Under the pieces are notes generated by a model. That model did no database searches. It worked only from the letters and a program-made list of their open reading frames with translations, and had not been told where the DNA came from. 64,000 bases of DNA. Origin: Saccharopolyspora gloriosae. Lineage in GTDB: Bacteria; Actinomycetota; Actinomycetes; Mycobacteriales; Pseudonocardiaceae. The DNA is taken from the NCBI RefSeq assembly GCF_022828475.1, contig NZ_CP059557.1, positions 6,433,470-6,497,469 on the forward strand, read 5' to 3'. Shown in pieces: positions 5,573 to 54,930 of this stretch. A program made the translations under genes and the position numbers. Every line of letters begins with the position of its first letter. Within the stretch, counting starts at the first letter, position 1.

Positions 5573-5650
5573 ACACCCCAGCCGCTCACCACGGCGCCAC
5601 CCCGCCAACAACAAAGCCGTACCTAGCAACGAAGCCGAACCCTGGCGGCG

Positions 5651-5827
5651 AAGCCGTGCTTTTGGCGGCGAAGCCCGCGAAGGGCGAGCGAAGCCCCGTC
5701 TGCCCCGCGGCCGAAGGCCGTGCCGTGCGGCGAAGCCGTGCTTTTAGCGGCGAAGCCCGCGAAGGGCGGGCAAAGCCCCGCCTGCCTCGCGGCCGAAGGC
5801 CGTGCCTTGCGGCGAAGCCGTGCCTGT
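5651..5827 (+). repeat. 82-bp tandem repeat made of GAA-loop mini-hairpins
   Basis: Two units of exactly 82 bp (5651-5732 and 5733-5814) differ at only a few positions; a third begins at 5815 and runs into the structured element. Each contains short palindromes with GAA loops, such as CGGC-GAA-GCCG and GGCC-GAA-GGCC. Closely related sequence recurs at about 33290-33507, 40680-40842, 46190-46335 and 49350-49401, each time just before a copy of the structured element. Confidence 0.85.
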
Positions 5828-5996
5828 ATGCGCGTCAGCGCATAGCCCACGTCACAAAGCCGACCACCCGCGGGTTCTCAGTTGGTCTCTCGCGAGGACA
5901 GCTTTTTCCCTCGTGGCGGAGCCACTCGGGAAAAAGATCCCGCAGCGAGGAAGCCACTGAGGTTCCGCCACCCGACCACCAAAGCCAAACGACCGG
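5828..5996 (+). repeat. Structured intergenic repeat, copy A
   Basis: Small stem ATGCGC/GCGCAT (5828-5833, 5838-5843) is followed by the large hairpin. The outer arms are 5877-5893 (CTCAGTTGGTCTCTCGC) and 5945-5961. Here they pair imperfectly, with 13 of 17 Watson-Crick pairs. The distal hairpin is TTTTTCCC/GGGAAAAA (5903-5910, 5928-5935) with GTGGC/GCCAC inside. The right end AAACGACCGG stops 1 nt before the stop codon of the minus-strand gene at 5998. Confidence 0.85.
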
Positions 5997-5997
5997 C

Positions 5998-7509
5998 TCA
6001 ATCGTTCCAAGCGACGAAGCCGGCTTCCTCCGCGTCTGCTTCGCTGCGGAACCAGACCTCGGCGATGACCCGGTCGTAGTGCGGCGAGTCCGGGGCGTGG
6101 TACCGCCGCGAACCGAAATCACCCTTGATCATGTGCCCGTCCTGCTGCGACGGCTCCTGCGGCGTGGCCAGTGACTCGCGCCTGCGGTTGGCCTGCGCCT
6201 GCGGGTCGGCGTGCCAGGCTGCGCCGGGCGAACGGGAGGTCTGCTGCATTCCGGGGCGCGGTCCGGCGCCGGGCGTGCGTCGCGGCAGCGGGGTCTGCTC
6301 GGACTCCGCGACCACCGGCACGTCCGAAGATTGGACGGAACCGGACGCCGGTTCGCTGAACTCGTGGGCTCGGCTTTCCACCAGTGCACGCAGGTTTCCG
6401 GCGAAGCCGTGGTGGTCCTCGCGCTCGTCGGGCCGATCCGACGCCGCGGGCTGCTCCGGTTCGGGCTCGACGTCGTCGCGGGACGGTTCGGGCGTCGGCT
6501 CGTCGCGGGACGGTTCGACTGCGTCACGTGGCTGTTCGGACGCGGGTTTCGGCGAGCTCGCCAGGTCCGAGAGGCCGAGCGCGGCGGACAGCTCGGCCGC
6601 GCCGGACAGTCCGGGCGGACCGGTCCGCTCGGGGGTCTCAGCGGCAGTGTCGGGCCGCGCGAAGATCTCGGTCCCGCCGGCGGTCGAGTTCTCGGCCCGC
6701 GGCGATCCGGCGATCTCCGGTTCGGCGCCCTCGTCCACGGCGTCCTTCTGGAACCAGGTGCTCGCGGATTCCACCGGGCGGTCGGCCGCCGGGTCGACGG
6801 CGTTCTCACCACGACCGAGGGCCTGTCCGATGTCGGCGGAGGTGGGCCGCGGGGTGTCCTGCTCGGCTTCGTGGTTCGGCGGGATGGTCCACGGCGAACC
6901 CACCGCGTTCGACGGCACGACCGTGTCGTCCTCCCGGCCGCGGCTGGGCCACCAGCCACCGCTGGAGCGGCCCGCGTAAGCGCTCTCGTCCTCCTGCCAC
7001 GCCCCGATGGGACGGGCGGTCGGAGTGGGTTGCGGGCTGCTCGGTGCCTGCTGCGGCGGCTGCGGACGTTGCTGCTCGGCACGCTGGGGTGTCTCGTCGT
7101 CGACAACGAGGTCGGCGACCTGCGAGCCGCCGCGCACCGAGACCTCAGCCCGGGCGTCGACCGCCGCCTGCTGCGCGGCGGACTGCTCAGCGGCCGGGTG
7201 CGGCAGCCGGGCGGTCTGCGTCGAATCCGTCCGAGGCGGCGGTTCGGGGACGTCCGGCAGGGGTTCTTCGTCCGCTTCTTGTTCCCAGCGCGGCTGGACG
7301 GTGGTGCGCTCGACCTTCGACGGCCGCGACGGGTCCTGCGCCCGCCAGGCCTGCCGGTCTTGGCGCGCGTCCTCATGATCCGCGAACTCGGACCTGACCT
7401 TGCGCAGCTTCCGCCGCAGCGGCAGCACGAACAACAACCAGGTGATCAAAGATCCGAGCAGGAACGCGGCGACACTCCACAACCACACCTGCGTAAACAG
7501 CCACACCAC
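5998..7509 (-). CDS. Sunset-domain membrane protein (ArfC-like C-terminus)
   Basis: A 503-residue protein with one N-terminal membrane helix (about residues 5-28, VWLWSVAAFLLGSLITWLLF) and a basic stretch. A long low-complexity region rich in Pro, Gln, Glu, Ser and Arg fills about 30-450. The C-terminal module of about 45 residues contains MIKGDFGSRRYHAPDSPHYD and AEVWFRSEADAEEAGF, the actinobacterial sunset domain named from ArfC variants. Its function is unknown. GTG 7509 is chosen for its AGGAGG 9 nt upstream. The basic linker and disordered body suggest a cytoplasmic scaffold anchored in the membrane. The next gene in the same direction upstream is the polyprenyl synthase, 319 bp away. 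Confidence 0.75.
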   Translation of the reverse strand: MVWLFTQVWLWSVAAFLLGSLITWLLFVLPLRRKLRKVRSEFADHEDARQDRQAWRAQDPSRPSKVERTTVQPRWEQEADEEPLPDVPEPPPRTDSTQTARLPHPAAEQSAAQQAAVDARAEVSVRGGSQVADLVVDDETPQRAEQQRPQPPQQAPSSPQPTPTARPIGAWQEDESAYAGRSSGGWWPSRGREDDTVVPSNAVGSPWTIPPNHEAEQDTPRPTSADIGQALGRGENAVDPAADRPVESASTWFQKDAVDEGAEPEIAGSPRAENSTAGGTEIFARPDTAAETPERTGPPGLSGAAELSAALGLSDLASSPKPASEQPRDAVEPSRDEPTPEPSRDDVEPEPEQPAASDRPDEREDHHGFAGNLRALVESRAHEFSEPASGSVQSSDVPVVAESEQTPLPRRTPGAGPRPGMQQTSRSPGAAWHADPQAQANRRRESLATPQEPSQQDGHMIKGDFGSRRYHAPDSPHYDRVIAEVWFRSEADAEEAGFVAWND

Positions 7510-14609: not shown

Positions 14610-15568
14610 TGCCGGACCTCCTCGGGGGACGGGTGCCCGGAGCCGGACAGCCCGTTCGTGCCGTTCTCACCGTTGTCGTGCCGGGATTCGGGCAGGTCGT
14701 CGACGGGCTCGGTCCCGATTTCCGGCTCTTCCGGTTCGCCGGTGCGTCCGGTCAGCGCGTGCGGATCCGGCCCGGTTCCGTTGCCCGTGACGGCGTCGCG
14801 TTCCCGGGCGAGCCGTTCCGCGGGCAGGTTGTCCAAGATCTCCGAGAGCGATTCGGGGGCCACCGAACCGTCCGGCAGCAGCGCCGGAGTGGCCACCGAG
14901 TTCGCCGTCGCGAACACGCCGGGACCGGGCAGCGGCGAGGACCGGTCGCCGCGCAGCCGGGCTTCGACGCGTTCCTTCTGGCTCACCCGCGCGGCGCGTC
15001 CCTTGCCGCCGAAGGCCAGCACCATCGCGCCGAGCGCCGCGGTGATCAGCAGCGCGGAGGTCAGCTCGAACGGGAACAGGTAGTCCGTGAAGATCAGCGC
15101 GCCGAGCCCGCCCGCACCGCCGCCGCGGGCCGACCACGGGTCCAGCGGCGCGGCCACCGGAACGTTCGTGAGCGCCCGGGCCAGCCCGGTCACCAGCAGC
15201 AGCGCGAACGCCACACCGGCGACGGCGGCCCAGAGCCGCTGTCCGCGCAGCACCTCCACCACCGAGTCCGAGGAGTCCCGCCCGACCATCATCAGCACGA
15301 ACAGGAACAGCATCATGATCGCGCCGGTGTAGACGATGATCTGGGTGAAGCCGAGGAACGGCGCGCTCTGCGCCATGTACAGCACACCGAGGCTGAGCAT
15401 CGTCAGCACCAGCCACAGCGCCGAGTGCACCGCGTTGCGGGCGAAGACCATGCCGAGCGCCCCGACCAGCGCCAGCGGGCCGAGGATCCAGAACGTCACG
15501 GCCTCGCCGGTGCCGACCACGTCCGCGGCCTGCTGCTGAGCGAGGACCGCCGTTGCCGCGAGCATCAC
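14606..15568 (-). CDS. nuoJ: NADH-quinone oxidoreductase subunit J with long C-terminal tail
   Basis: A 320-residue protein. The first 200 or so residues are the five-helix NuoJ core ([20 protein letters not shown], ... [20 protein letters not shown]). The rest is an acidic, Pro/Gly-rich tail of about 110 residues that ends [12 protein letters not shown]. coli NuoJ is under 190 residues; long tails are seen in actinobacteria. The start is GTG 15568 (overlapping the nuoI stop) or ATG 15565. Confidence 0.95.
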
Positions 15569-31180: not shown

Positions 31181-31310
31181 GGACCACCGGCGGGTTCTCA
31201 GCTGTCTCGCGAGGACGGCTTTTCCCTCGTGGCGGAGCCACTCGGGAAATAACCCCGCAACGGAAGACACCTGAGGTTCCGCCACCCGGACACCAAAGCA
31301 GAACGAGCAG
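31181..31310 (+). repeat. Structured intergenic repeat, copy B (diverged)
   Basis: The closing GCGG/CCGC stem and GTT loops are kept. The outer arms (from 31197 and ending 31275) pair for CTCAG and TGTCT with one mismatch. The distal hairpin TTTTCCC-GTGGC/GCCAC-GGGAAA (about 31220-31248) is intact. The small ATGCGC stem and mini-hairpin array are absent. The copy ends 3 nt before the menG stop codon. Confidence 0.75.
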
Positions 31311-31313
31311 CGA

Positions 31314-32003
31314 TCACTCAGGCTTGAAAGCCCGGTGCACGGCGACGGCTCCGCCCATGAGGTCGCGCCAAGCGACCCGAGACCAGCCCGCCTCGGCGAT
31401 CTTCGCCGACAGCTCCTGCTGGTCCGGCCAAGCCCGGATGGACTCGGCGAGGTAGACGTACGCGTCCGGGTTGGACGACACGGCGCGCGCGATGGACGGC
31501 AGCGCCCGCATCACGTAGTTCATGTACACCGTGCGGAACGGTTCCCAGGTGGGAGTGGAGAACTCGCACACCACGAGCCGCCCGCCGGGCCGCACCACGC
31601 GGGCCATCTCCCGCAGCCCCGCCACGGTGTCCACCACGTTGCGCAGGCCGAACGAGATCGTCGCCGCGTCGAACGAGCCGTCCGCGAACGGCAGGTGCAG
31701 CGCGTCCGCGGCCACCATCGGCAGCCCGCGATCCCGGCCCACCGACAGCATGCCGAGCGAGAAGTCGGCGGCCACGCACCACGCGCCGGACCGCGCGAGC
31801 TCCACGGTCGACACGCCACTGCCCGCGGCCAGGTCCAGCACCCGCTCGCCCGGTTTCGGGGCGACCGCCTGCGTGGTGATCTGCCGCCACCGCCGGTCCT
31901 GGCCGAACGACATCACCGTGTTCGTCAGGTCGTAGCGCTTCGCGACGCCGTCGAACATCGCGGCGACCGCTTGCGGATCCTTGTCCAAACCGGCACGAGA
32001 CAC
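31314..32003 (-). CDS. menG: Demethylmenaquinone methyltransferase
   Basis: A 229-residue SAM-dependent methyltransferase of the UbiE/MenG family. It has the AdoMet motif [16 protein letters not shown] and the family signatures [12 protein letters not shown] and [16 protein letters not shown]. It performs the last methylation of menaquinone synthesis. The start is GTG 32003, with a TAGGCT -10 box 6 nt upstream and no ribosome-binding site, so the mRNA is probably leaderless. Position next to mgtA matches mycobacteria (Rv0557-Rv0558). Confidence 0.92.
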
Positions 32004-33507: not shown

Positions 33508-33690
33508 ATGCGCGTCAGCGCATAGCCCACGCAAGCAAAACGACCACCGGCGGGTTCTCAGCGGCCTTCTCGCGAGGACAGCAGCCCGGACCCAGATTTC
33601 GCTGTGTATCGGACATACATGAGAAATGGATCCCGCAGCGAGAAGGCCGCTGAGGTTCCGCTACCCAGACACCCCAGCAACAAGAGCCCT
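33508..33690 (+). repeat. Structured intergenic repeat, copy C (variant apical loop)
   Basis: Outer arms 33557-33573 (CTCAGCGGCCTTCTCGC) and 33638-33654 pair perfectly over 17 bp, though their sequence differs from other copies. The small stem ATGCGC/GCGCAT is at 33508-33523. The distal hairpin found elsewhere is replaced by an unrelated one, ATTTC/GAAAT enclosing TGTAT/ATACA. The conserved loop strands GAGGACAGC and GATCCCGCA are kept. Confidence 0.85.
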
Positions 33691-40679: not shown

Positions 40680-40842
40680 CGCAGCCAACGGCGAAGCCGT
40701 GCTTCGCGGCCAAGCCCGCAAAGGGCGACGAAGTCCCACCTGCCCTGCGGCCGAAACCCGTGCCTGACGGCAAACCCGTGCCCCGCGGCGAAGCCGTGCC
40801 CCGCGGCGAAGCCAACTCCTTGCGGCCGGAGGCCGTGCCTGG
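40680..40842 (+). repeat. Mini-hairpin array before repeat copy D
   Basis: Degenerate units of the GCGGCGAAGCCGTGCC type lead into copy D. The gap 40306-40679 upstream of it is moderately AT-rich for this genome. It should contain the M1 peptidase promoter and shows nothing else I can support. Confidence 0.65.
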
Positions 40843-41010
40843 ATGCGCGAAGCGCATAGCCCACGTCGAAAAAACGACCACCCGCGGGTTCTCAGTTGGT
40901 CTCTCGCGAGGACAGCTTTTTCCCTCGTGGCGGAGCCACTAGGGAAAAAGATCCCGCAGCGAGAGACCAACTGAGGTTCCGCCACCCGACCACCCAAGCA
41001 AAACGACCGG
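40843..41010 (+). repeat. Structured intergenic repeat, copy D
   Basis: Small stem ATGCGC-GAA-GCGCAT is at 40843-40857. The closing stem is GCGG 40884-40887 / CCGC 40979-40982, with GTT/GTT internal loops. Outer arms 40891-40907 (CTCAGTTGGTCTCTCGC) and 40959-40975 are perfectly complementary. The distal hairpin is 40917-40949. The copy ends 4 nt before the menD stop. It is nearly identical to copy E. Confidence 0.9.
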
Positions 41011-41014
41011 AACC

Positions 41015-42691
41015 TCAACCAACAAGTACGGAACTAACGGCGGCTTGGAGGCGGGCGTGGAGACTCCGAGTCTCAGCTCTATCGGCCTGTATCTCGACGA
41101 CGCGCAATCCCGGTGGCCCGTGCAGGGCGTCCGGGAAGTCCGAGCGCTGCCGCACCCGCACGTGGCCCACTCCGTGCGCCGCGCACAGCTGGGCTAGGTC
41201 GGTTCCGTGCGGGGTGCCGAAGACCCGCTCGAACGAGCCGCGATGCTCCGGGCCGCCCTGCTCCAGCAGCGAGAAGATGCCGCCGCCGTCATCGTTGAGC
41301 ACCACGATCGTCAGGTCCGGGCGCTGTTCCTGCGGCCCCAGCAGCAGCCCGTTCCCGTCGTGCAGGAACGTGAGGTCGCCGAGCAGTGCGTACGTCGGAC
41401 CGTTGTGCGCCAGCGCGGCGCCGATCGCCGTCGAGACCGTGCCGTCGATCCCGGCCACGCCGCGATTGCGGTGCACCGCGACGTCCGGGCGGTGCCGCGC
41501 GGCCAGCGCCACGTCCCGGCTCGGATTCGACGATCCCAGCACCAGCAGTGAGCTGGCGGGCAGCTCGTCGACCAGGTCCCTGGCGAGCACTGGTCCGTTC
41601 GGCCAGCGCTCCAGGTCGAGCGCGGCGTGCAGCGCGGCCGCCACCTTCTGGTCCGCCTGCTGCCAGGCCGTGAGCCAGTCCGGGTCGGCCGTCCGGGTCG
41701 GCCCGGCGTCGAAGGTGTGCGCGACCTCCCGCACCGCGTGGCCGGGCGACGGCCAGTCCGCATCGCCGCCGTGCGCCAGCAGCACCTCCACACCGGCATC
41801 GGTGAGCAGCGACTGCACTTGGCGGAACACCGTCGGCCTGCCGACGCACAGCACCTGCTCCGGCTGGTGTTCGCGGACGAACTCGGCCTGGTTCAGCAGC
41901 CACATTCCGGTGCTGATCGCCGCGCCGCCGGGGAGTCCGACACCACCGGTCTCGGAGAGCACCGGCCAGCCGTACCGTTCGCCCCAGGCACCGGCCGCTT
42001 CGGCGCTGCCGTCGGCGGCGAGCACCAGCCCGCGCCGCGCCGTCGGACCGCGCAGGCTGCTCGGCCTGCCGCCGTCCACGGCGATCTCGGTCCAGGGCGC
42101 GTCGTCGGCGCGTCCGTCCATCGGCTCGCACCATTCGAGGTCGCCGGTCGGTACCAGCGGCTCCCGGAACGGCAGGTTCAGGTGCGCCGGACCGGATCGA
42201 GCCGTGCCCAGCGCGGCCCGCGTGGCGCGGCACACCTGGCTGCGCCAGTAGGCCTGCTGCCCCGGGCGGTTCTCCGCGACGCCCAGCTCATCGAAAAACC
42301 GGACCTGCGGCCCGAACATGCGGTGCTGGTCGATCGTCTGGTTGGCCCCGGCCGCCCGCAGTTCCGGTGGGCGGTCCGCGGTGAGCACGATCAGCGGGAT
42401 CCCCGCCTCGGTCGCTTCGCTGACCGCGGGATGCAGGTTCGCCGCGGCGGTGCCCGACGTGCCCGCCACCACCACCGGCCGTCCGCTGCGCGCCGCCAGC
42501 CCCAGGGCCAGGAAGCCCGCGCTGCGCTCGTCGATGCGGACGTGCAGCCGGACCCGGCCCGCCTGCGACGCGCGGTGCAGCGCGAACGAGAGCGGCGCGT
42601 TGCGCGACCCCGGGGAGAGCACCACGTGCCGAACCTGATTGCGAATCAGCTCATCAACGATGACCTCGGCCTGTGCCGTGGACGGATTCAA
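41015..42691 (-). CDS. menD: SEPHCHC synthase
   Basis: A 558-residue thiamine-diphosphate enzyme that adds a 2-oxoglutarate-derived succinyl group to isochorismate. Family marks are RHVVLSPGSRNAPLSFALHR near the N-terminus, the Glu-containing LLVLGSSNPSRDVAL region and the ThDP motif YALLGDLTFLHDGNGLLLG (GD...DGN). The frame runs far upstream, but homologues start MNPSTA; the codon there is TTG (42691). No stronger start codon is in frame nearby, so a rare TTG start is likely. It is divergent from menB, 168 bp away. Confidence 0.92.
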   Translation of the reverse strand: MNPSTAQAEVIVDELIRNQVRHVVLSPGSRNAPLSFALHRASQAGRVRLHVRIDERSAGFLALGLAARSGRPVVVAGTSGTAAANLHPAVSEATEAGIPLIVLTADRPPELRAAGANQTIDQHRMFGPQVRFFDELGVAENRPGQQAYWRSQVCRATRAALGTARSGPAHLNLPFREPLVPTGDLEWCEPMDGRADDAPWTEIAVDGGRPSSLRGPTARRGLVLAADGSAEAAGAWGERYGWPVLSETGGVGLPGGAAISTGMWLLNQAEFVREHQPEQVLCVGRPTVFRQVQSLLTDAGVEVLLAHGGDADWPSPGHAVREVAHTFDAGPTRTADPDWLTAWQQADQKVAAALHAALDLERWPNGPVLARDLVDELPASSLLVLGSSNPSRDVALAARHRPDVAVHRNRGVAGIDGTVSTAIGAALAHNGPTYALLGDLTFLHDGNGLLLGPQEQRPDLTIVVLNDDGGGIFSLLEQGGPEHRGSFERVFGTPHGTDLAQLCAAHGVGHVRVRQRSDFPDALHGPPGLRVVEIQADRAETRSLHARLQAAVSSVLVG

Positions 42692-42846
42692 CCCATCACC
42701 CCGGACTCCCTCGCACGCTGCCTGATCGCTCCCAGTGTCGCCGGGGCCGCCGGACCGCTTCGACCCGGTGTCGTCCCGACCGAGCGACGTGCCGCCGCTC
42801 ACACCGGCCGACGCCCTCCTGGTGTTCAGCACGCCGAGACGGGCCC

Positions 42847-42852
42847 TATTGT
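42847..42852 (+). promoter_or_regulatory. -10 box for leaderless menB
   Basis: TATTGT ends 7 nt before the GTG start of menB. TGTTCA at 42823-42828, 18 nt upstream, may serve as the -35. Confidence 0.55.
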
Positions 42853-42859
42853 CCCAGGC

Positions 42860-43783
42860 GTGCTGAACTCGCGTGTCTCTGAGCTGTTCGACCCGGCCGT
42901 GTGGGAACCCGTCAGCGGGTTCGACTTCACCGACATCACGTATCACCGCTGCGTCGAGGAGGGTCCCGGACGGGGCACCGTCCGCATCGCCTTCAACCGG
43001 CCCGAGGTCCGCAACGCCTTCCGCCCGCACACCGTGGACGAGCTGTTCCGGGCGCTCGACCACGCGCGGATGTGCAGCGATGTCGGGGCCGTGCTGCTGA
43101 CCGGGAACGGGCCGTCGCCGAAGGACGCGGGCTGGGCCTTCTGTTCCGGCGGCGATCAGCGCATCCGCGGCCGCTCCGGCTACCAGTACGCCGCCGGTGA
43201 GACCGCCGACACCGTTGATCCGGCGCGGGCCGGACGGCTGCACATCCTGGAGGTGCAGCGGCTGATCCGCTTCATGCCCAAGCTCGTCATCGCGGTCGTC
43301 CCCGGCTGGGCCGCGGGCGGCGGGCACAGCCTGCACGTCGTGTGCGATCTCACCCTCGCCAGCGCCGAGCACGCCCGCTTCAAGCAGACCGACGCCGACG
43401 TCGGGAGCTTCGACGGCGGCTTCGGCAGCGCTTACCTGGCCCGGCAGGTCGGGCAGAAGTTCGCCCGCGAGATCTTCGCGCTCGGCCGCGCCTACGACGC
43501 CGAGCAAGCGCACCGGATGGGGATGGTCAACGAGGTCGTGCCGCACGCCGAACTGGAGACGACCGCCCTGCAGTGGGCACGGGAGATCAACGGCAAGTCT
43601 CCGACGGCGCAGCGCATGCTCAAGTACTCGTTCAACGCGATCGACGACGGCCTGGTCGGACAGCAGCTGTTCGCCGGGGAGACGACGCGGCTGGCATACA
43701 TGACCGATGAGGCCGTCGAAGGCCGGGACGCGTTCCTCCAGCGCCGGGAGCCCGACTGGACGCCGTTCCCCTGGTACTACTGA
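42860..43783 (+). CDS. menB: 1,4-dihydroxy-2-naphthoyl-CoA synthase
   Basis: A 307-residue crotonase-fold enzyme that cyclises O-succinylbenzoyl-CoA. Visible features are AFNRPEVRNAFRPHTVDELF, the oxyanion-hole segment AFCSGGDQRIRG, VVPGWAAGGGHSLHVVCDLT, and the C-terminal MenB signature FLQRREPDWTPFPWYY. Length agrees with mycobacterial MenB. GTG 42860 has a leaderless-type promoter. A possible terminator hairpin lies at 43818-43855. Confidence 0.95.
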   Translation: MLNSRVSELFDPAVWEPVSGFDFTDITYHRCVEEGPGRGTVRIAFNRPEVRNAFRPHTVDELFRALDHARMCSDVGAVLLTGNGPSPKDAGWAFCSGGDQRIRGRSGYQYAAGETADTVDPARAGRLHILEVQRLIRFMPKLVIAVVPGWAAGGGHSLHVVCDLTLASAEHARFKQTDADVGSFDGGFGSAYLARQVGQKFAREIFALGRAYDAEQAHRMGMVNEVVPHAELETTALQWAREINGKSPTAQRMLKYSFNAIDDGLVGQQLFAGETTRLAYMTDEAVEGRDAFLQRREPDWTPFPWYY

Positions 43784-46173: not shown

Positions 46174-46189
46174 CGACCACGACGAAGCA

Positions 46190-46335
46190 GTGCAGTCGGC
46201 GGCGAAGCAGTGCAGTCGGCGTCGAAGCCCGCGAAGGGCGGGCAAAGCCCCGCCTGCCTCGCGGCCGAAGGCCGTGCCTTGCGGCGAAGCCGTGCCTTGC
46301 GGCGAAGCCGTGCCTTGCGGCGCAGCCGTGCCTGG
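46190..46335 (+). repeat. Mini-hairpin array before repeat copy E
   Basis: Three or four near-identical 18-bp units (GCGGCGAAGCCGTGCCTT) follow a segment almost identical to part of the 82-bp unit at 5740-5814. Confidence 0.8.
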
Positions 46336-46504
46336 ATGCGCGTCAGCGCATAGCCCACGTCGAAAAAACGACCACCCGCGGGTTCTCAGTTGGTCTCTCG
46401 CGAGGACAGCTTTTTCCCTCGTGGCGGAGCCACTAGGGAAAAAGATCCCGCAGCGAGAGACCAACTGAGGTTCCGCCACCCGACCACCAAAGCCAAACGA
46501 CCGG
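46336..46504 (+). repeat. Structured intergenic repeat, copy E
   Basis: Small stem ATGCGC/GCGCAT is at 46336-46351. Outer arms 46385-46401 and 46453-46469 are perfectly complementary and identical to copy D. The copy ends 5 nt before the stop of the DUF3558 gene and lies between convergent genes. Confidence 0.9.
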
Positions 46505-46509
46505 ACGAA

Positions 46510-47079
46510 TCAGTCCACTGCAGAAAGAACGTACTGAGCTATTCCCTGGGCGGCGTCGCACTCGTCAGAGTCGGCCTCAGCGGACTGCACCGTGACCTGC
46601 AGGGTCCCCCGCCCGACTCCCGCGAACACGCTGCACTCGTTGGCACGCAGCGTCTTCGTCCCAGGGACTTCGCCGAGCCGTACTTCGTCCTCACCGAGCC
46701 CGGCGTACTCCTGGGGCTGGGAGGCGATCAAGATCGACCGAACCCCGCTCTGCGCCTCGAACCGGCAGCCGCGCACCGGCGGGTCGAATCCGATCTCGCG
46801 CGCAACCCCGGGCCGCACGGCGTAGCCGAACCGTCCGAGTTCGTCGACGTTGATCAGCCCGCACAGTTGTTCCGCGGAGGCCCCGGCGAGGTCCTGGCGC
46901 CGTTCCGGCGGCACTTCGCGGGTGATCGATGGGGTGACGGTCTCCGGTTCGGCCTGGTCGCTGCCGCTCGTCGTGGGTGTGCTGCTCGGCGCGGGCGGCG
47001 GGCCGCCGGAGGTGCACCCGGCGAGCACGACGGCGAGCGCGGGTACCAGCACGGCGGCGGAGATCGTCGGCCGGCGCAT
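46510..47079 (-). CDS. DUF3558 lipoprotein
   Basis: A 189-residue exported lipoprotein. The N-terminal signal ends in lipobox LAGC (Cys22), followed by a Ser/Thr/Pro linker and a DUF3558 domain (about 65-189) with paired cysteines (EQLCGLINVDELGRFGY, RGCRFEA, NECSVF, DECDAA). Function is unknown; the family is abundant in Pseudonocardiaceae. ATG 47079 has GAGGAGG upstream. Confidence 0.85.
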   Translation of the reverse strand: MRRPTISAAVLVPALAVVLAGCTSGGPPPAPSSTPTTSGSDQAEPETVTPSITREVPPERRQDLAGASAEQLCGLINVDELGRFGYAVRPGVAREIGFDPPVRGCRFEAQSGVRSILIASQPQEYAGLGEDEVRLGEVPGTKTLRANECSVFAGVGRGTLQVTVQSAEADSDECDAAQGIAQYVLSAVD

Positions 47080-49340: not shown

Positions 49341-49401
49341 GCGCGGGCTTCGCCGCCTCGGCAGCGGCGAAGCCGAATCCTCGCGGCGAAGCCGTGCCTG
49401 G

Positions 49402-49569
49402 ATGTGCGAAGCACATAGCCCACGTGAGCAGGGTGACCACCGGCGGGTTCTCAGTGAGCCTCTCGCGAGGACAGCTTTTTCCCTCGTGGCGGAGCCACTC
49501 GGGAAAAAGATCCCGCAGCGAGAGGCTCACTGGGGTTCCGCCACCCGACCACCCAAGACGAAAGACCGG
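49402..49569 (+). repeat. Structured intergenic repeat, copy F
   Basis: The small stem is ATGTGC-GAA-GCACAT (49402-49416), a paired change from ATGCGC/GCGCAT. Outer arms 49450-49466 (CTCAGTGAGCCTCTCGC) and 49518-49534 pair at 16 positions plus one G-U type wobble. The distal hairpin is as in copy A. The copy ends 15 nt before the stop of the ATPase gene. Confidence 0.9.
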
Positions 49570-49584
49570 GCCGCCCCGACAACC

Positions 49585-51231
49585 TCAGGCCTGGCGCTGG
49601 CGGCCGAAGGCCTGCGGGAAATCGTCGGCGACGATCGCCCCGAGTTCCAGCAGTGCCAACCGGGTCGGGGCGGCGAGCTGGTCCAGTTCGACCTCCGCAC
49701 CTTCTTCGAGGTGCGGGTCGAACGGGATGCGGGACACCGCCCGGCAGCGCGAACCGAAGTGGGCGCTGAGCTTGTCGACGTCGACCTTGCCGGAACCGGG
49801 CCGCACCGAGTTGATCACCGCGACCGAGCGGGAGACGAGCTGCCCGTACCCGTGCGCGTCCAGCCAGTCCAATGTGGCCGAAGCGCTGCGCGCCCCGTCG
49901 ATGGAACTGGACGAGACGATCACCAGCGAGTCCGCGACGTCGAGCACGCCCTTCATCGCCGAGTGCATCAGTCCGGTGCCGCAGTCGGTCAGCACGATGT
50001 TGTAGAAGTGCTCCAGCAACGTCACCGTGCGCTGGTAGTCGTCCTCGCTGAACGCCTCGGAGACCGCCGGGTCCTGCTCGCTGGCGAGGATCTCCAACCG
50101 GCTCGGCCCTTGCGAGGTGTAGGACCGCACATCGCTGTACTTGCGAATGCGTTGCGCGTCCCGCAGCAGGTGGCGCACGGTGGCCGTGGTCTCCAGCGGG
50201 ATCTTCTGGCTCAGCGTGCCACGGTCCGGGTTGGCGTCCACGGCGATCACGCGATCACCGCGCAGCGAGGAGAACGTGGAGCCGAGGGTCGCGGTCGTCG
50301 TGGTCTTGCCGACGCCGCCCTTCAGGCTCAGCATCGCGATCTTGTAGCAGCCTTGCAGCGGCTGGTTGATCCGGCCGATCAGTTCGCGGCGGCGCAGGTC
50401 GGAAGCGCTCTCGCCGAGGTTGATCGAACGACCGCTCGCCACGTACAGCGCCTTGCGCCAGCCGGATTGCGGGGCGCGCTTGGTCTGCCGCAGCAGTTGC
50501 GAAGAAGCGAGGTCCTTCCCGAACGGCACACCTTGCTGCTGGCCGGGCTGCTGCTGGCCGGGATGTTGCTGGCCCGCTTGCGGCTGGCCCGGCTGCCCGG
50601 CGGCGGGCTGCCCGACGCCCGGCTGCTGAGCGCCCTGTTGCGGCTGCTGCGGAAATCCCTGCTGCTGCGGGAACGGTCCGGCGACCGGCGCGTACGGGTT
50701 CTGCTGGCCGCCCACCTGGTACGGCCCGGACTGGCCACCGGCGACCGGGTACGGCCCCGAGTTGGCAGGCACCTGGTACGGACCGGACGTCCCGCCCTGC
50801 ACCGGCTGGGGACCTGACTGACCACCGGGAACCTGGTGCGGCCCGGACGGCCCGCCCGGAGCCGGGAACGGCCCGGATTGATGCGGCTGCGGCCCGGACG
50901 GCGTCTGCTCGGTGTACTGCGAACCCGCCTGCGGATACTGCGGCCCGGCATCGGGGAAAGACTGTCCACTCTGGACGTTCTGGCCGCCGGGGACGTTCTG
51001 ACCACCAGGGTAGTACGGCTGCGGCCCGCCGGGACTCGCCGCGCCCTGCACGGGAGCGTTCGGCGTGGTCCCCGGCTCCACGTACGGCTGCGGTCCCGCG
51101 GGCACCGAGCCGTCACCGTAATCCGGGGTCGCGTGATCCGTCGTGCCGTTCGCCTGCTGCGCCGAGTCCGCACCGGGCGAGGCCGAACCCGCATCGCGTT
51201 GCGTTTCGGGCTCTTCGTACCGTCCGGTCAC
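49585..51231 (-). CDS. Pro/Gln-rich MinD/ParA-like ATPase (EspI-like)
   Basis: A 548-residue protein. The first 230 or so residues are low complexity, rich in Gly, Pro, Gln and Ser (SGPYQV and GPQP repeats). The C-terminal half is a deviant-Walker ATPase with MLSLKGGVGKTTTTATLG and DANPDRGTLSQ, then a switch region LTDCGTGLMHSAMK. Architecture matches EspI/ESX-associated ATPases, yet no ESX genes are in the window. GTG 51231 has GGGAGGT 9 nt upstream. It lies downstream of resC, 112 bp away. Confidence 0.78.
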   Translation of the reverse strand: MTGRYEEPETQRDAGSASPGADSAQQANGTTDHATPDYGDGSVPAGPQPYVEPGTTPNAPVQGAASPGGPQPYYPGGQNVPGGQNVQSGQSFPDAGPQYPQAGSQYTEQTPSGPQPHQSGPFPAPGGPSGPHQVPGGQSGPQPVQGGTSGPYQVPANSGPYPVAGGQSGPYQVGGQQNPYAPVAGPFPQQQGFPQQPQQGAQQPGVGQPAAGQPGQPQAGQQHPGQQQPGQQQGVPFGKDLASSQLLRQTKRAPQSGWRKALYVASGRSINLGESASDLRRRELIGRINQPLQGCYKIAMLSLKGGVGKTTTTATLGSTFSSLRGDRVIAVDANPDRGTLSQKIPLETTATVRHLLRDAQRIRKYSDVRSYTSQGPSRLEILASEQDPAVSEAFSEDDYQRTVTLLEHFYNIVLTDCGTGLMHSAMKGVLDVADSLVIVSSSSIDGARSASATLDWLDAHGYGQLVSRSVAVINSVRPGSGKVDVDKLSAHFGSRCRAVSRIPFDPHLEEGAEVELDQLAAPTRLALLELGAIVADDFPQAFGRQRQA

Positions 51232-54827: not shown

Positions 54828-54930
54828 TAGCGGAACCTCAGTGAGCGGCTTTGGGACGTGGGCCAACCGCTTCGCGCGAACGGGCACGGCTTCGCCGCAG
54901 GGCACGGCCTTCGGCCGCAAAGCGCGGTTT
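54828..54930 (-). repeat. Structured intergenic repeat, remnant copy G
   Basis: Read on the minus strand it has mini-hairpin units (GCGGCCGAAGGCCGTGCC, GCGGCGAAGCCGTGCC), a decayed small stem followed by GGCCCACGT, and then only the right arm ACTGAGGTTCCGC. The rest of the large hairpin is deleted. It is the only copy in this orientation. Confidence 0.7.

Follow-up and report, generated by a model that had tools for sequence, protein, structure and literature searches.

The window, that is, the whole stretch of 64,000 nt of Saccharopolyspora gloriosae DNA that was analysed, carries six copies (A to F) and one remnant of an intergenic element, together with minus-strand genes whose stop codons face the copies (Table 1). 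Direct reading of the DNA found the six copies and the remnant where a sequence-only reading of this stretch had placed them, and the layout given in that reading was confirmed: a GCGG/CCGC closing stem, a GTT/GTT internal loop, a 17-bp arm, the loop strands GAGGACAGC and GATCCCGCA, and a distal hairpin. In copy D, the closing stem is formed by GCGG at 40884-40887 and CCGC at 40979-40982, and the arm pairs 40891-40907 with 40959-40975. The arms also read as had been described, being identical and perfectly paired in copies D and E, perfect but different in C and interrupted by one T-G pair in F. Two of the six copies are more irregular than that reading implied: copy A has a mosaic arm in which 4 of the 17 pairs are non-Watson-Crick, and the arms of copy B are shortened and unequal.

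Table 1. Element copies and facing genes in the window (positions in nt from the first letter of the window).
Feature	Position	Strand	Basis
Copy D, small upstream hairpin ATGCGC-GAA-GCGCAT, young-subfamily form	40843-40857	+	sequence
Copy D, 5' linker, C/A-rich	40858-40883	+	
Copy D, core: GCGG, GTT, 17-nt arm, GAGGACAGC, distal hairpin, GATCCCGCA, arm, GTT, CCGC	40884-40982	+	
Copy D, 3' linker, C/A-rich; ends 4 bp short of the facing stop codon	40983-41010	+	
Gene with Pfam matches to the N- and C-terminal domains of thiamine-pyrophosphate enzymes; stop faces copy D, 33 bp from CCGC	41015-43513	-	own gene caller, start uncertain
Copy A, mosaic arm; core 5870-5968	5828-5996	+	
Gene, stop facing copy A; no Pfam match	5998-7509	-	
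Copy B, shortened arms; core about 31190-31282	31181-31310	+	
Gene, stop facing copy B; UbiE/COQ5-type methyltransferase	31314-31958	-	
Copy C, perfect arm, distal part longer; core 33550-33661; no facing stop codon	33508-33690	+	
Copy E; core 46378-46476	46336-46504	+	
Gene, stop facing copy E; DUF3558	46510-47079	-	
Copy F; core 49443-49541	49402-49569	+	
Gene, stop facing copy F; AAA / CbiA (ParA-type) domain	49585-51231	-	
Remnant, hairpin deleted, opposite orientation; orthologous site in G001 holds a full copy	54828-54930	-	

In the usual arrangement, linkers flank a long bulged hairpin (P3), which mostly follows a small one (P2). The predicted RNA folds of copy D are very stable on both strands, at -70.8 kcal/mol and, for the minus strand, -72.0 kcal/mol. 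The GTT/GTT loop offers the pairing options G-U, U-U and U-G on the described strand, which reads from GCGG to CCGC, and A-C, A-A and C-A on the other. Several related structures were observed alongside the element. Arrays of small hairpins, with units like CTTGCGGCGAAGCCGTGC and the longer GGGCGGGCGAAGCCCCGCC, lie 5' of young copies in the window (about 5620-5827, 40700-40842 and 46187-46335) and vary in length among copies and species. Inside the element in L166, L173, L178 and L180 lies another palindromic repeat, which contains GGCGGTGGTCGGGCTGGCGGGTGGG or a sequence like it (its complement in L178) and resembles a nested insertion. A simplified copy at L209:900-968 retains a perfect arm hairpin and has lost the loops and the distal hairpin, and a derivative at L048 (about 15000-15182) has an IS-like end and the small hairpin and is without the long one.

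The element is a dispersed, genome-wide repeat family, more extensive than was first described. A first look at the 6.88-Mb genome gave 358 candidates, and nhmmer identified 97 copies in the window and 80 tiles of 20 kb, a portion of 1.66 Mb or 24% of the genome. Many different arm sequences coexist in one genome. By BLAST, copy D matched 11 of 41 genomes, one of them (G013) over only 29 bases. A search with a covariance model, as proposed in the sequence-only reading, recovered the element in 54 of 200 sampled genomes of the same bacterial family, distributed over 13 of 46 genera, and an order-wide sample of 298 genomes, which included that family, gave 19 matching genomes, all 19 of them in the family. 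Thirty model-positive genomes held at least 1 to 115 matches each at E 1e-8; these counts are lower bounds because 118 candidates were scored per genome. A pattern search of contigs gave at least 8 stretches, from Saccharopolyspora, Halosaccharopolyspora, Halopolyspora and Actinopolyspora. A plasmid or phage origin was rejected, as the core of copy D was unmatched in both plasmid and phage collections at the sensitivity of blastn. The sequence-only reading knew of no named family with this layout, and Rfam agrees: at gathering score the window yields only a tRNA, and the interval 40700-41100, searched with E up to 10, gave three chance-level matches (E 1.3-2.8). No paper on the element was recognised in a literature search conducted mostly outside subscription journals.

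For the analysis of covariation, 49 diverse copies were aligned; 30 pairs were predicted from this alignment, and double changes occurred at 15 of them. Covariation was clearly in excess, with pairing in 92.7% of cells and double changes in 202, compared with 42-55% paired and 20-45 doubly changed cells when the partner was slid by 1-3 columns, and none of 500 shuffles reached the named structure on any of five measures. Conservation applies to the structure together with the loop sequence, as had been argued from the window: the arms covary and both internal loops are near-invariant, and of 104 distinct copies from relatives, 89 have an intact GTT/GTT and 87 an intact GAGGACAGC.

Compensatory change was also found at one orthologous locus. 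All seven genomes of genus g50 hold 1-4 matches, and five of the seven have in common a copy directly after gatB (the gene in G114, a partial protein, matches the NCBIfam GatB models at 1.6e-148). In G087, G114 and G134, this copy is the sole match at E 0.001. The flanks of the post-gatB copies are nearly invariant and the arms are divergent, with 8 of the 17 pairs altered on both sides; pairs 3 and 15 are swapped between G-C and C-G from species to species, and pairs 6, 9, 10, 11, 12 and 13 are likewise altered on both sides. Against this, the copy of G165 has three broken pairs, and the arms of G114, G087, G134 and G165 each contain a pair that reads A-C in the sense of the gene, or T-G on the opposite strand. 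The next gene after gatB is co-directional, and conservation does not extend to the stretch upstream of the would-be transcript.

Placement relative to genes was studied in 77 S. gloriosae copies that fitted a pattern covering the whole core with errors allowed, with the neighbouring genes called by our own gene caller. The stop codon of the 3'-side gene faces the element in 63 of the 77, against an expectation of 46% based on intergenic regions of at least 150 bp (p = 1e-10), and in 55 of these 63 it lies 24-47 bp from CCGC; 14 copies have no 3'-side facing stop. Among 120 distinct copies from relatives, 87 have a facing stop within 60 nt on the 3' side and 4 have one on the opposite side (L102/L182, L094/L115 and L118/L204 were each counted once and L141, from the S. 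gloriosae genome, was left out of the distinct-copy counts). Convergent settings are common: the stop of the 5'-side gene faces the element within 500 nt in 73 of 104 distinct copies, 66 of which have stops on both sides. A tandem setting with no convergent gene accounts for 27 of the 77 S. gloriosae copies and 31 of the 104 from relatives. The neighbouring genes that were tested have mixed functions.

In a wobble strand test, non-standard pairs of the arm were tallied as they read on the described strand. Sixteen low-copy genomes with 1-8 matches each (all 31 matches with loci, out of 38, entered the count) gave 42 G-T, 4 A-C and 16 other pairs (p = 5e-9), or 27 G-T vs 4 A-C when scored as distinct genus-column events (p = 3e-5). 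The G-T excess lies on the described strand, and the folded strand is therefore antisense to the adjacent gene. The S. gloriosae copies have no G-T bias (25 G-T, 38 A-C, 27 other). The copies of relatives gave 94 G-T, 17 A-C and 23 other, a difference that is inflated because these copies were mostly top matches chosen by the model; relatives fetched by BLAST gave 11 vs 4 over 20 distinct arms. The tiles of G018 gave 23 vs 6 with family-wide pairs seen in at least three copies included, and mismatches seen once pointed in the opposite direction (3 vs 6). Two other causes of the signal were rejected: selection of matches, as the bias persists in the 16 low-copy genomes where every match with a locus was counted, and mutation bias, as the leading-strand G-over-C excess of S. 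gloriosae and G018 would predict the opposite direction. Judging from these substitutions, selection in few-copy genomes acts on the fold of the strand that runs antisense to the neighbouring gene, whereas in multiplied lineages the copies decay without bias. Hairpins have also been lost at orthologous sites of the S. gloriosae copies and, because of this loss and the missing wobble bias, many of these copies look dispensable. The wobble by itself is compatible with RNA or with single-stranded DNA of the folded strand and does not tell the two apart.

The linkers differ from the background in composition. The 22 nt before GCGG contain 41% C, 23% G and 6% T in the S. gloriosae copies, and the linkers of relatives 49% C, 18-25% G and 5-7% T; the background, taken from the same strand of S. 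gloriosae beyond other stops, has 35% C, 35% G and 15% T. On the folded strand, a T-run after the hairpin is absent, T making up 5-7% of the 22 nt past CCGC.

The element was compared with several known systems. Integron attC sites have inverted R boxes with GTT opposite AAC and recognised bulges, and their structure is kept while the arm sequence varies. The element is alike in its bulges and in this last respect, but it has GTT on both sides (in the same 89 of 104 copies) and its copies are dispersed singly. Rho-dependent terminators contain a C-rich, G-poor unstructured stretch on one strand, which the linkers resemble by composition only; we know of no dispersed structured family of such terminators. 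REP palindromes are short, about 20-40 nt, whereas the core of copy D spans 99 nt. REP/BIME sequences with RAYT are comparable in being dispersed, with more than 100 intergenic palindromes per genome according to an excerpt of PMC2817692, but the bulged hairpin of the element is much longer, its arms covary and its anchoring at stop codons is one-sided. Moreover, Y1 transposase (PF01797) was detected in 5 of 25 genomes and 5 of 14 controls, with none in the copy-rich G000-G003, one in G004 and two in G005, and identity with RAYT/REP was rejected on account of its absence from G000-G003. ERIC and other MITE-like repeats are also dispersed hairpin repeats, and the effect of ERIC on upstream transcripts depends on orientation (excerpt of PMC2229807); the element differs from them in its cross-genus core, near-invariant loops and in-situ compensation, and in outer ends that are not common to genera. 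Bidirectional intrinsic terminators are likewise hairpins past gene ends, and paired DNA-uptake sequences serve as terminator hairpins beyond gene ends (excerpt of PMC2267715), but the element has no T-run on its folded strand and possesses two conserved internal loops and a long arm.

The best reading, which we hold tentatively and place short of an even chance, is that of a strand-specific structured RNA boundary element that acts on transcription toward the gene end and that is a mobile repeat in some lineages. Four features fit an antisense-acting element best: placement at gene ends, a fold on the antisense strand, linkers rich in C, and frequent convergent settings. The selected fold would belong to a transcript that runs toward the opposite-strand gene, either from a convergent gene or from a stray promoter. 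The C-rich unstructured linkers may let the termination factor Rho load, the transcript would end before or just inside the antisense side of the gene, and the stable hairpin would then protect the trimmed 3' end. The element could in this way insulate gene ends against antisense read-through and might replace the usual terminator, in keeping with the two window sites, described below, at which element-free sister species carry an ordinary hairpin. In some lineages, for example this genus, it appears to have multiplied as a non-autonomous repeat of which most copies decay. Several observations count against this reading: the absence of a T-run, the missing wobble bias and the hairpin losses of the S. 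gloriosae copies, the G018 mismatches seen once, the setting at gatB, the fork-related orientation in G018 described below, and the tandem cases, about a third, in which no convergent gene would supply the transcript. Three options had been offered from sequence, namely a structured RNA, a bidirectional terminator or processing signal, and a DNA hairpin. The wobble strand and the stop-codon placement favour an RNA or terminator-type function; a symmetric bidirectional signal does not fit, because the copies have a strong preference in orientation to the gene and only one strand carries the wobble signal; for the DNA hairpin, no enzyme emerged among the Y1 transposases and reverse transcriptases that were sought.

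A simpler explanation is a 3'-UTR hairpin or terminator in the adjacent gene's own mRNA (minus strand), which would end or stabilise the message about 30-45 nt after the stop codon. It would account for the tight stop distance and the preferred orientation in S. gloriosae and in relatives' copies from 13 genera, and the minus-strand RNA of copy D folds very stably (-72 kcal/mol). In addition, element-free sister species carry an ordinary hairpin at two of the window sites, 5573-5997 and 49341-49584, where the element-bearing S. gloriosae is without that hairpin; G003 has both the element and the ordinary hairpin at 49341-49584, and G005 has neither at 5573-5997 (all by eye). This explanation is contradicted, however, by the wobble strand, as the fixed non-standard pairs would be A-C in the mRNA, with G-U rare, and a general U-tract is lacking. 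We consider it unlikely.

We regard as distinctly unlikely a mobile single-stranded DNA whose plus-strand hairpin loops would be read by a transposase or recombinase, as in attC or REP/IS200-type systems, with constraint acting on active copies. Structure and loops conserved with a strand bias are compatible with such an element, as are the unbiased decay of the S. gloriosae copies and the dispersal of the family: at nine window sites compared in four sister species, full or partial copies are present in some and absent in others, and at two of the nine the G001 copy is oppositely oriented. Replication provides further evidence of this kind. The orientation of the S. gloriosae copies follows the genes only (57 of 97 elements and 858 of 1479 genes leading). 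In G018, 50 of the best 58 of 107 matches run with the fork, compared with 233 of 387 genes in 19 tiles (p = 1e-5), which hints at a DNA-level process, but unselected tiles give 18 of 23 (p = 0.05). In G017, the 11 copies listed, of at least 40, change strand at mid-genome: those below 3.9 Mb are all minus and those above 4.9 Mb all plus. Against these points stand the Y1 transposase, absent from the copy-rich genomes as given above, the compensation that keeps the structure where the post-gatB copy is the sole match, and the stop-codon anchoring, which is left unexplained. A role of the DNA hairpin in mobility may nevertheless exist in multiplied lineages alongside the RNA role.

We find it improbable that the element is an IS5-family MITE whose interior is a passenger and whose arm pairing is kept by arm-to-arm copying. 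A 906-bp IS5-family element with ends GGGTCCTTGCAGAATGATC (NCBIfam IS5 transposase above cut-off) occurs at L061:13601-14506 and L024:8121-9026; both copies are flanked by apparent CTTAG/TTA duplications, and the one in L061 adjoins a copy of the element. Similar ends were found at six further sites in the S. gloriosae tiles, some old S. gloriosae copies have ends resembling those of the IS5-family element, and mosaic arms do exist. However, young copies and other genera have different ends, and the outer ends vary between genera while the core is common. The mismatched 3x3 and 9x9 loops rank with the best-conserved parts of the element although copying between arms would remove them as well, and as a sole cause of the pairing such copying was rejected since the loops would not survive it. 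A strand-biased wobble is not predicted, and no clean empty site with a target duplication was found across the orthologous sites of sister species, where the intergenic stretches are mostly divergent and a target duplication is unreadable for that reason. The contrast that had been drawn with transposons stands in that the structure is conserved, but it was too sharp, as copies come and go and some old ends are IS5-like. Retro-type spread of an RNA element through a reverse transcriptase, with which an RNA-like constraint and the defined 3' and variable 5' sides of the S. gloriosae copies (by eye) would agree, is very improbable and was rejected, as among six genus members, S. gloriosae included, RVT_1 (PF00078) gave a single match, in G002, and none in G000, G001, G003, G004 and G005.

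To return to the strand-specific RNA boundary element, it is possible, though we think somewhat unlikely, that it represents a new class of mobile RNA insulators that would settle at gene ends, fold in and stop the antisense-running transcript, and be kept by the host through compensation, as after gatB. Dispersed bacterial repeats are usually taken for junk or binding sites. To our knowledge, amplification, covariation around fixed loops, stop-codon placement and an antisense-strand fold have seldom been shown together. The covariance model provides a concrete new family for annotation, and the gatB copies form a ready natural series for testing the role in stopping antisense transcription. 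If antisense read-through is indeed stopped, the element would illustrate the recruitment of a mobile repeat into the termination system of its host. The findings suggest an uncatalogued signal that marks where the reading of genes should stop.
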